Of a stretch of DNA of 35,759 bases, positions 103-16,143 are shown piece by piece. Under the pieces are notes generated by a model that ran no database searches, was not told where the DNA came from, and saw nothing but the letters and a program-made list of their open reading frames with translations. Both the position numbers and the translations under genes were made by a program. The stretch is from Lysobacter sp. Root690 (lineage in GTDB: Bacteria; Pseudomonadota; Gammaproteobacteria; Xanthomonadales; Xanthomonadaceae), in the NCBI RefSeq assembly GCF_001427785.1, contig NZ_LMHM01000016.1, positions 158,974 through 194,732 of the forward strand. The letters are read 5' to 3'. Within the stretch, counting starts at the first letter, position 1, and every line of letters starts with the position of its first letter.

Positions 103-460
103 GGTGTCGCCCCGATCACGGCGAAAATCGAGCCGCGCACTGCGACCCAATCTTTATGAGGCATGCCGCTGAGCGTGCGTCAGCGTCGAACAGGTGGCTT
201 GCGTTGCATCGGCGCCGAGGCCTTATTCCCCGAATCGCGGCGCTGGCCGGGTGTGAAGCCGCCAGCCGGATCCTGCGCGATCGCCATGCTGCGGTGCAGC
301 TTGCATCGACATTGATCCCATAAATACTATTTATCCTACAAATAGGACAGCGCGACTGCCCGGCCCAGCCGGAGCGGCCGCGCAGGGAGGGACCGAGCGG
401 GGGCGAGGTCCGGTCGATCGTCAATCAACAGCGAAATCGCTGTTCAGCCGGGGCAGGGTA
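103..460. other. Intergenic leader of the galactoside locus
   Basis: About 360 bases without a convincing gene. The short frames here have no recognisable protein features. The useful content is AT-rich sequence at about 301-350, holding a candidate promoter and the palindromic operator described separately. An approximately 110-base untranslated leader then runs to the receptor start. The leader ends in a purine-rich stretch (GGGGCAGGG) a few bases before the ATG, which may serve as the ribosome site. Confidence 0.5.
327..345. promoter_or_regulatory. Palindromic operator upstream of the TonB receptor
   Basis: The site has 6-bp inverted arms CTATTT and AAATAG around a 7-bp centre. Its inner 17 bp (328-344) match the site at 16127-16143 upstream of the GH36 gene at 16 of 17 positions. 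A candidate promoter, TTGCAT at 301-306, an 18-bp spacer and TACTAT at 325-330, would place the palindrome over the -10 box, which suits repression. The most likely ligand is the FadR-type GntR regulator encoded at 16382-17167. That binding is inferred; the matched palindromes are seen directly. Confidence 0.7.
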
Positions 461-3274
461 ATGCATCAATCAGCACTGACCGTTTCCGTTCGTAACGCAC
501 TTCGTGTCCGCAACGCGCTGATGGTCACGATGGCGATGTCCGCCGTCGTCGCCCAGGCCGCGCAAGCGCAACAATCCGCCGACGCGCCGTCCGCCGCGGC
601 GGCCGAGAGCGCCGACAAAGACCCGACCACGCTCGGCGCGGTGGTGGTCAGCGGCACCCGCGCGAGCATCCAGAAATCGCAGGCGCTCAAGCAGGACGCC
701 ATCGGCACCGTCGACGCGGTGTCGGCCGAGGACGTGGGCAAGTTTCCCGACCAGAACGTCGCCGACTCGCTGCAGCGCATCGCCGGCGTGTCGGTGGATC
801 GCTCCGGCGGCGAATCGCGCTTCATCACCGTGCGCGGCTTCGGACCGGAATTCAACACCGTGCTGCTCAACGGCCGGACCATGGCGACCGAGAACGCCGG
901 GCGCGAATTCAGCTTCGACGTGCTGCCGTCGGAGCTGATCAGCACCGCCGAGGTATTCAAGACCTCGCAGGCCAATCTCAGCGAAGGCGGCATCGGCGCG
1001 ACGGTCAACATCAAGACCCGGCGCCCGCTCGACGACAAGGGGTTCCACGTCGCCGGCAGCGTGTCGGGCGTACGCGACAGCCTGTCGGGCGAAACCAAGC
1101 CGAAGTTCTCCGGCCTGATCAGCGACACCAACGCCGACGGCACCTTCGGCGCCTTGCTCGGCGTGGTGCGCTACCAGCGCGATCACACCAGCGAGGTGAT
1201 CGACGACGAAGGCTGGCTGACCGGCAGCAACGGCATCAACGGCGTGAGCGGCTTGAACAACGTCGCCGTGCCGCGCACCCTGCAATACAAGGTCAATCAG
1301 GAACAGCGCACCCGCACCGGCGTGAATGCGGCGATCGACTGGTTGCCGAGCGAGAACGTACGGGTGGGCGTGGACGCCATGTACTCCAAGTACGAGATCG
1401 ACTCGAAGGTCAACGCCTTCGGCCTGTACACCGACCCCGCCGACGTCCAGCAAGTCAGCGTCGATGCCAACGGCACCGCCACCTCGTTCGTCCGCCGCGA
1501 CACCGGTGGGCTGGCCAACGATCACATCGTCTCGTCCAGCCCACGCAACTCGATCAACCAGCAGCTCGGCGTCAACGTCGCCTGGCAGGTCGGCGAGCAG
1601 ACCTCGCTGGACTTCGACGGCTCCTATTCCAAGGCCGAGGAGAACAGCGGCGGCAAGGGCTATTTCATGGTGATGGGCGCGCGCAATGTCGGCGTGAACC
1701 CGACCTGGAATCTCAATCCCGGCGCGTTTCCGAGCTACTCCAATCTGTTGCCGACCACCGACACCTCGGATCTGCGCGCGCATTTCGTCGACCGCGAAGG
1801 CGACAACCGCAGCGACGAGCTGTACGAGGGCAAGGTCAGCCTGACCCGCAACTTCATCGAAGGCACCTTGTCGCAGTTGCAGTTCGGCATCTCCGGTTCC
1901 AAGCGGACCAAGGACAGCGTCACCGTGCGCACCTCCGACAGCGATCTGAACTGCGCGTACTGCGGTTATGCGGTGCGGCTGCCGAGCGAACTGGCCAGCG
2001 TGTTCAATGCCGGCTCGCTGGTGAACGGCGTCTCCACCGGCGCGCCGACCCAATGGCTGACGTTCGATCCGCAGCGCTACTTCGACTTCCTGTCGAGCCC
2101 GGCGGCGTACAACCAGTTCGCGCCCGGCGGCGAGTTCTACGATCCCAACGATCCCGGCCGCGCCCAGCGCATCGCCGATGCCTTGCAGAAATACGGCGGC
2201 TTCAGGGCGATGCCGGTGCCGCAAAGCCAATGGCTGGTGGAGGAGAAGTCGTACGCGGCGTTCGCCCAGGCCACGTTCGAGAACACCTTCCACGACATGC
2301 CGTGGACGCTCAACCTCGGCGTGCGCTTCGTCAAGACCGATGCGGTATCGCGCGCGGTGTCCTCGCAGGTGGAATCGATCACCGGCACGCCGGGCGATCC
2401 GACCAACGCCCAGGTGCATTTCACTCCGCCGATTCCGATCTCGCGCAGCGCCAGCTACAACGACTGGCTGCCGTCGTTGAACTTCCGCATCAATCTGCGC
2501 GAGAACCTGGTGCTGCGCGCGTCGGCGTCCGACACCTTGACCCGGCCGACCCTGACCAGCCTGCGCATCAGCGAAGACATCGGCGTGCGTCCGCCGGGCC
2601 CGGGTTCGATCAACACCGGCAACATCGATCTCAAGCCGTACAAGGCGCGCAACTACGATCTTGGCGCGGAGTGGTACTTCAACGACACCAGCTACCTCGG
2701 ACTGGCGGGCTTCTACAAGAAGGTCGAGAACTTCGTCACCAACGTGACCCGGCCGACCACGATCCAGGGCTATCCGTTCATGGAAACCCTGCCGGTCAAC
2801 GCCAATACCGCCGTGGTCAAGGGCGCGGAGTTGTCGTTCCAGTACACCTTCGACCGCCTGCCGGCGCCGTTCGACGGCCTGGGCGTGCAGGCCAACTACA
2901 CCTACGTCGACAGCAAGCAGAGCTTCGATCCGGCCATCGCCACCGGTCAGTTCGCGGTGGTGGGTCTGGCCAATTCGGGCAATCTGATCGTGTTCTACGA
3001 AAAGGGCCGGGTCGGTTTCCGCGCGGCCTACAACTGGCGCGACGAATACCTCTCGGCGGTGCGCGGATCGCAGGGCGAGCCGACCACGGTCAAGCCGTAT
3101 GGTCAGATCGATCTGAGCGCCAACTTCAAGCTCAACGACCACGTCTCGCTGTTCGCCGAGGCCAGCAACGTCAACGACGAGACCGAAGCGGCGTATTCGC
3201 GCTACGAGAGCCGTCCGCAGTGGGTCGCGGCGAACGGCCGCGCGCTGTCCTTCGGTGTCCGTGGATCATGGTGA
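461..3274 (+). CDS. TonB-dependent outer-membrane receptor, carbohydrate type
   Basis: This 937-residue protein should import oligosaccharide, here probably galactosides, across the outer membrane using TonB energy. A signal peptide with a long basic N-terminus ends near residue 37 (AQAQQ). The plug domain spans about residues 60-185 and contains the family-typical segments [31 protein letters not shown] and GIGATVNI. The rest is beta-barrel and ends in FGVRGSW, a terminal strand with aromatic last residue. Length and plug sequence fit the TonB-Xanthomonas/Caulobacter subclass. It is the first gene of the galactose operon, with the operator upstream. Its stop overlaps the next start in TGATG, so translation is probably coupled. 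Substrate identity is inferred only from the neighbouring galactosidases. Confidence 0.93.
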
Positions 3275-16099: not shown

Positions 16100-16126
16100 G
16101 CAGACCCCTCCGTCTGATCATTATCG

Positions 16127-16143
16127 TATTTATCATACAAATA
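16127..16143. promoter_or_regulatory. Operator upstream of the GH36 gene, matching the receptor operator
   Basis: The sequence TATTTATCATACAAATA has inverted 5-bp arms TATTT and AAATA. It differs from the site at 328-344 only at the central base. It lies 28 bases upstream of the GH36 start codon, in an AT-rich island within GC-rich DNA. On the minus strand a TATGAT hexamer (16132-16137) inside the palindrome could be the -10 box, so binding would block transcription. The proposed ligand is the adjacent GntR/FadR-type regulator. Confidence 0.72.

Follow-up and report, generated by a model that had tools for sequence, protein, structure and literature searches.

A galactoside locus of Lysobacter sp. 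Root690 carries two near-identical 17-bp sites, O1 before a predicted operon led by a TonB-dependent receptor gene and O3 before a GH36 alpha-galactosidase gene, and both are very likely, on sequence evidence, to be operators of the FadR-type GntR protein encoded beside O3 (16382–17167). Coordinates are positions of the window, which is the whole 35,759-nt stretch of DNA analyzed; the genome consists of 6,296,053 bp in 18 contigs. The first-pass annotation had reported that the 17-mers at 328–344 (O1, TATTTATCCTACAAATA) and 16127–16143 (O3, TATTTATCATACAAATA) are almost the same although they lie about 16 kb apart, and 16 of their 17 bases are indeed equal. It had also called them a palindrome; symmetry is present, but both sites are imperfect palindromes because each has only six of eight symmetric pairs.

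Near-repeats as such are not rare in the window. Same-strand pairs of 17-mers with one mismatch or none and more than 2 kb apart numbered 93, compared with a mean of 13.9 in 20 first-order Markov resamplings. Of the 93, only the O1/O3 pair has an AT content of more than 60%, and no pair of this kind appeared in the 20 resamplings. When the shared pattern TATTTRTMNKAYAAATA was searched in the whole genome with up to two mismatches, O1 and O3 alone were recovered (one place for a reversed-pattern control). At three mismatches, there were nine places compared with 10 in the control, so this level is noise; further operators in the genome beyond O1, O3, and a site abutting O1 (O2, described below) were rejected on the same counts for up to three mismatches.

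As first proposed, O1 precedes the receptor gene and O3 precedes the GH36 gene. The distances to the start codons are 116 nt for O1 (receptor ATG at 461) and 27 nt for O3 (GH36 ATG at 16099, minus strand), and the two sites are oppositely oriented relative to transcription. O3 sits in the divergent GH36-gntR intergenic region, 238 nt before the conserved gntR ATG at 16382, and is thus also the copy nearest to the regulator. The earlier statement that no copy precedes the regulator gene was therefore wrong insofar as O3 occupies this shared region and right insofar as a conserved, promoter-like box of gntR lies approximately 146 nt from O3. The box (GTGCTATCGTG, 16289–16299, plus strand) is of the extended -10 type and is perhaps that of gntR; its TGCTAT at 16290 is invariant in all seven aligned intergenic regions. 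gntR thus seems to be transcribed from a promoter of its own, and direct autoregulation is doubtful because of the distance between this box and O3.

Conservation of the sites and their regulator

Seven genomes were found to have the receptor-GH2 / GH36-gntR layout: Root690 itself, five others of its genus, namely G116, G248, G190 (Lysobacter sp. ISL-50), G250, and G241, and also G043 ([Pseudomonas] boreopolis JCM 13306). Orthologous genes were checked for the site, and all seven genomes have one copy before the receptor gene, at the place of O1, and one between GH36 and gntR, at the place of O3. These are not seven independent events because G116 and G248 differ little from the window (regulators 98% and 96% identical, respectively); the informative genomes for conservation are G241, G043, and G664. 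In alignments of seven and eight genomes, the sites stand out as blocks of invariant columns flanked by diverged stretches. In the GH36-gntR alignment (seven genomes), 91 of 382 columns are invariant and fall in the operator, the TGCTAT box, and the gntR start; in the receptor promoter alignment (eight genomes, including G664), 41 of 266 are invariant, clustered at the operator and at another block farther upstream. In G043, an additional observation is that the GH2 matches come in two adjoining pieces (L051:10960–13927), perhaps because of a frameshift.

The sites also co-occur with the regulator. Among 20 genomes of the genus, a regulator ortholog with 86–100% identity was present in six, and two more had only 53% matches; the site pair was found at the locus in 6/6 ortholog genomes, whereas a pair within 20 kb was found in 0/14 others. 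Across 247 genomes of the family, sites with up to one mismatch were present in 5/8 genomes in which the regulator was matched and in 8/239 in which it was not, the latter being near background because the reversed control gave 9/247. Linkage of the regulator to dgoD, dgoK, and dgoA is present in the window and kept in six of the seven layout genomes.

Beyond these relatives the regulator is rare, with matches, own genome included, in 12/397 genomes at the order level (E ≤ 1e-45) and 3/369 at the class level (E ≤ 1e-40). An operator matrix was built from six distinct layout sites, with the seven layout genomes serving as training material and not counted as tests; O1, which is itself in the training set, scores p = 1.0e-10. 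The matrix was applied at p < 1e-6, with 100 permuted matrices for comparison, to a distant set of 15 regulator loci (42–66% identity, L028 included) and to a control set of 18 loci with remote GntR matches (24–39% identity; L029–L032 and L034–L047). Of 22 loci, L026 is the G190 locus, L027 is the G043 locus, and L033 (Proteus) was placed in neither set. Matches were obtained in 13 of the 15 distant loci (permuted matrices: mean 2.39, maximum 11), so the site is conserved there in derived form.

Strong matches lie before outer-membrane receptor or barrel genes, or between these and gntR, in G012 (approximately 500 nt away), G046, G247, G664, G839, G859, G624, G633, and G648 (one stretch fetched), and before dgoD in G046, G395, and G507. 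G664, which belongs to another family, has a 17-mer identical to O3 between gntR and a receptor only 42% identical to that of the window. Weaker matches fall in the gntR-GH36 interval of G395 and, in G138, in the interval flanked by an aldolase gene and dgoD; the strongest match in G138 is upstream of its second gntR. The best match at a Kordiimonadaceae locus precedes a dihydroxy-acid/6-phosphogluconate-type dehydratase gene. As a separate observation, G138 and G247 (L057 and L082) have a different dgo cluster with two aldolase genes and two GntR genes (approximately 53% and 35–37% identical to that of the window).

Relation to DgoR and alternative readings

The regulator gene (16382–17167, plus strand) encodes a protein with the FadR-subfamily architecture, namely PF00392 (41.6 bits, cut-off 27) followed by the FCD domain PF07729 (84.2 bits, cut-off 24.3). 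Its start is most likely at 16382 because all seven aligned genomes have this ATG and the 15 codons up to a second in-frame ATG at 16427 are open and similar. When E. coli DgoR was used as the query, this regulator was the single match in its genome (E up to 0.001), and a PDB search with the regulator returned DgoR (7c7e) as the best hit at 108.6 bits, followed by PdhR at 62.8. DgoR residues Arg102, Asp146, His150, and His195, which are among the docked galactonate contacts and metal ligands given in PMC7674646, are all conserved. The designation DgoR-like regulator is thus well supported by sequence. The proposal that the 17-mers define a likely DgoR operator for this lineage likewise gained support: the sites are conserved in place and matched in distant loci, the regulator is the only DgoR match in the genome, and it retains the FadR-type domains and metal ligands, while the site layout fits the FadR subfamily. 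A DgoR-type operator is therefore well supported.

Several observations weigh against this assignment. The regulator is only 30% identical to E. coli DgoR, and seven of 11 docked DgoR contacts are not identical in it (Q173, R179, W181, D184, T191, which is Ser here, S221, and R224), noting that the contacts are docking-based and that the alignment is gappy at these seven positions. The four kept pocket residues are weakly diagnostic because every one of the 14 aligned regulators has them. As a positive control for the matrix, the E. coli dgo operator failed: its IR1 had p = 8.6e-4, which is third of 1385 positions in 1.4 kb and not significant. No consensus sigma-70 promoter was found at O1 or O3, and a terminator-like hairpin (10901–10916) lies between dgoK and the symporter gene of the receptor operon. 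Three genomes of the family with a 53–63% identical regulator had no site at up to one mismatch, and the loci of G798 and the Kordiimonadaceae genome were the two of 15 without a match at p < 1e-6. Four of the 18 control loci passed, all of them from Rhizobiales (permuted mean 1.1, maximum 5). Strong matches at L102:1182, L103:4380, L104:12984, and L107:4930 have no clear expected gene downstream, the last being inside the first codons of a GH53 open reading frame (ORF) when the ORF is taken from its first start codon. Finally, G043 keeps the site pair, and dgo genes were not found on its 38-kb contig; the symporter and epimerase genes were not found on this contig either, and the locus is a reduced version. 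The passing Rhizobiales controls were three Phyllobacterium and one Rhizobiales bacterium (L029:9796 and L030–L032) with regulators of 36–38% identity, and, from these sequences, the same regulatory system is perhaps present in Alphaproteobacteria.

It is conceivable, if rather unlikely, that this regulator does use the sites as its operators but has an effector other than D-galactonate (galactono-lactone, 2-keto-3-deoxygalactonate, or galactose) or acts as an activator. The differing pocket residues and the G043 contig, with sites and no dgo gene found, would fit such a reading, and the sign of control is not readable from sequence alone. Set against it are the entire galactonate pathway behind O1 in the window, the retention of the metal ligands and Arg102, and the location of the sites, which overlap or abut likely -10 regions, given the promoter positions that we infer in this analysis. 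D-galactonate is the probable effector, supported by the pathway and not by the pocket; it is probable and not proved because seven of 11 proposed pocket residues differ.

That another transcription factor binds the sites, with the neighboring GntR protein a bystander, is considerably harder to accept. The assignment to this regulator is drawn from sequence, and the receptor promoter contains a further conserved element at 285–303 and may thus be acted on by more than one factor; however, site pairs in the genus occur only with this regulator (6/6 compared with 0/14), related sites lie near its distant homologs, and their layout is that of the FadR subfamily. The idea that the 17-mers are kept for RNA polymerase as AT-rich parts of the promoters (-10 or UP elements), without any repressor, has very little to recommend it, because, even though both sites are where a -10 region could be expected and AT-rich DNA is rare here, the pattern occurs at only two places in 6.3 Mb (up to two mismatches), in opposite orientations relative to transcription at the two promoters, and its symmetric half-sites are kept while adjacent DNA changes.

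Promoter structure and gene content

At the receptor promoter, O1 is the predicted main operator, and a weaker predicted operator, O2 (310–326, CATTGATCCCATAAATA; matrix p = 2.4e-7), abuts it with a 1-bp gap (18 bp center to center). O2 has three mismatches to the shared pattern and 5/8 symmetric pairs. An offset of -18 from O1 scored a mean of 13.5 bits over eight receptor promoters (the next best offset scored -14.0), and the same scoring revealed no comparable abutting operator on the GH36 side. G190 and G250 have a weak left half of O2, and in G043 this half was not recovered. Six of the eight receptor promoters have exactly ATAAATA as the right half; G241 has ATAGATA and G664 has ATATATA.

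The further element upstream of O2 and O1 (285–303, plus strand, CATGCTGCGGTGCAGCTTG) is near-palindromic, with 18–19 of 19 positions matching in 8/8 receptor promoters, 17/19 in G798, and 16/19 in G012; its spacing to O1 varies by 2–4 bp among the aligned promoters. A 20-base form is unique in its own genome at zero mismatches and has eight further places at two mismatches. A loosened pattern gave 37 matches in the genome compared with 15 for the control, and tblastn with the window receptor as the query placed a receptor beside only the window's own locus among 30 fetched. In the order, 229/397 genomes contain the element at up to one mismatch, a raw count for a loose pattern. Among the matches listed for the order, 30 loci were inspected; an element of this kind leads into receptors in two (L153 and L180) and precedes a gene for what we take, from its sequence, to be an MFS sugar-permease-like product in two others (L179 and L182). 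These searches are too loose to settle the role of the element. A speculative extension, which we regard as doubtful, is that the receptor promoter is a module of approximately 60 bp, in which an element for a second regulator (CATGYTGC-NN-TGCRGCTTG) and two abutting DgoR-type operators stay fixed while the receptor is replaced or strongly diverges (42% in G664). Related elements before other sugar-uptake genes would then be combined with other local operators, each local repressor being slotted into an uptake promoter common to the order.

The plus-strand genes behind O1 begin with the TonB-dependent receptor (461–3274; TIGR01782, 664.4 bits, cut-off 310) and a LacZ-type GH2 beta-galactosidase (3274–6489; NF052611, 991.6 bits, cut-off 999; PF02836, 318.4 bits). 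They continue with an SDR dehydrogenase that, from its context, is likely a galactose 1-dehydrogenase (6486–7265), a DgoA-type 2-dehydro-3-deoxy-6-phosphogalactonate aldolase (7262–7909; PRK09140, 285.7 bits, cut-off 207), the D-galactonate dehydratase DgoD (7906–9054; PRK14017, 655.6 bits, cut-off 311), an SMP-30/gluconolactonase family protein that is likely a galactonolactonase (9096–10001, start approximate; PF08450, 218.9 bits), and the 2-keto-3-deoxygalactonokinase DgoK (9998–10882; PF05035, 304.2 bits). From the receptor gene to dgoK, neighboring genes adjoin or share a few nucleotides, except for a gap of at most 41 nt before the lactonase gene. A sodium:solute symporter (SSS) gene (10994–12556; TIGR00813, 365.9 bits) and an aldose 1-epimerase family gene (12877–13770; PF01263, 109.9 bits) follow. 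Both probably belong to the receptor operon, and only probably because the dgoK-symporter gap is approximately 111 nt (54 nt if the symporter starts at GTG 10937) and contains the hairpin described above; terminator-like hairpins in 9000–14000 are no denser than chance (four found, 4.0 expected). The GH36 gene (13883–16099, minus strand; PF02065, 388.7 bits) is convergent with the symporter/epimerase end of this series and divergent from gntR. The locus is thus a De Ley-Doudoroff galactose route plus uptake and hydrolases.

Between the symporter and epimerase genes, a small ORF (12556–12861) encodes a signal peptide and, at the C terminus, a Melibiase_C piece (PF17801, 21.0 bits, cut-off 22.9). 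It looks like an in-frame remnant of an alpha-galactosidase, presumably of GH27 from the family signature. The same slot holds ORFs of 399–410 aa in G248, G250, G241, and G664, the same short form in G116, and a different short form in G190.

In the regulatory scheme that we propose, a repressor dimer would, without inducer, occupy O1 at the receptor promoter, with O2 as a weaker adjoining site, and O3 at the GH36 promoter. There, across or next to the likely -10 regions, the dimer would block RNA polymerase and keep two units off. One comprises the receptor, beta-galactosidase, and galactonate enzymes of the De Ley-Doudoroff route, probably together with the symporter and epimerase; the other is the convergent GH36 gene. 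Imported galactosides would be converted to galactose and then to galactonate, which would bind the FCD domain (Arg and an Asp/His/His metal site) and release the repressor, and the receptor operon and GH36 would be induced together.

Comparison with known systems

The system is best read as a lineage-specific DgoR-type regulon, a clean but ordinary case of an established type of gene control; its novelty is modest, and it overturns nothing. A search of titles in the open-licence PubMed Central literature found none on this Lysobacter locus. For galactoside use in Lysobacter and its relatives, the predictions offer a testable operator and a regulon that extends from an outer-membrane receptor into central metabolism; they also link DgoR-type control to TonB-dependent carbohydrate uptake. 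The pairing of regulator and operator, kept or drifting over 42–100% protein identity, should be useful for studies of DNA choice by FadR-type proteins.

According to PMC4494728, the FadR-subfamily operator consensus pairs a TKGT box with an ACMA box and places 3 nt between their GT and AC. The core of O1 and O3, TTGT-N3-ATAA, has this spacing, with AT instead of AC in one arm, and like the subfamily operators described there, the window sites are AT-rich palindromes. Weaker extra half-sites are reported in the same text at 7–12 nt from the center, whereas the extra element in the window is an almost complete, abutting second site at 18 bp center to center.

The closest functional relative is the E. 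coli dgo operon. In PMC12288454 and PMC7674646, its DgoR is a GntR/FadR-type protein with an FCD domain that controls dehydratase, kinase, and aldolase genes, as is predicted for the window. Two neighboring inverted repeats are described at the E. coli promoter (PMC12288454), as at the window receptor promoter, with a spacing of approximately 21 bp, by our own reading of locus L067, compared with 18 bp. The core reads TTGT-N3-ACAA in E. coli and TTGT-N3-ATAA here, and the outer operator bases differ. We describe the operator as lineage specific because the E. coli DgoR operator is not singled out by the matrix and what the two have in common is the core layout alone. The E. coli regulator is encoded by the first gene of its operon, whereas the window regulator is divergent from GH36. 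Relative to the dgo operon described in those papers, the predicted regulon adds the TonB-dependent receptor, beta- and alpha-galactosidases, a sugar dehydrogenase, and a lactonase. For Halomonas, the part of PMC5507952 that was available presents a predicted DgoR regulon in which, likewise, a De Ley-Doudoroff locus has DgoR sites, a DgoL-type lactonase, and an SSS transporter; that part does not mention a receptor or galactosidase under DgoR, unlike the window, and the comparison was of gene content without the motif.

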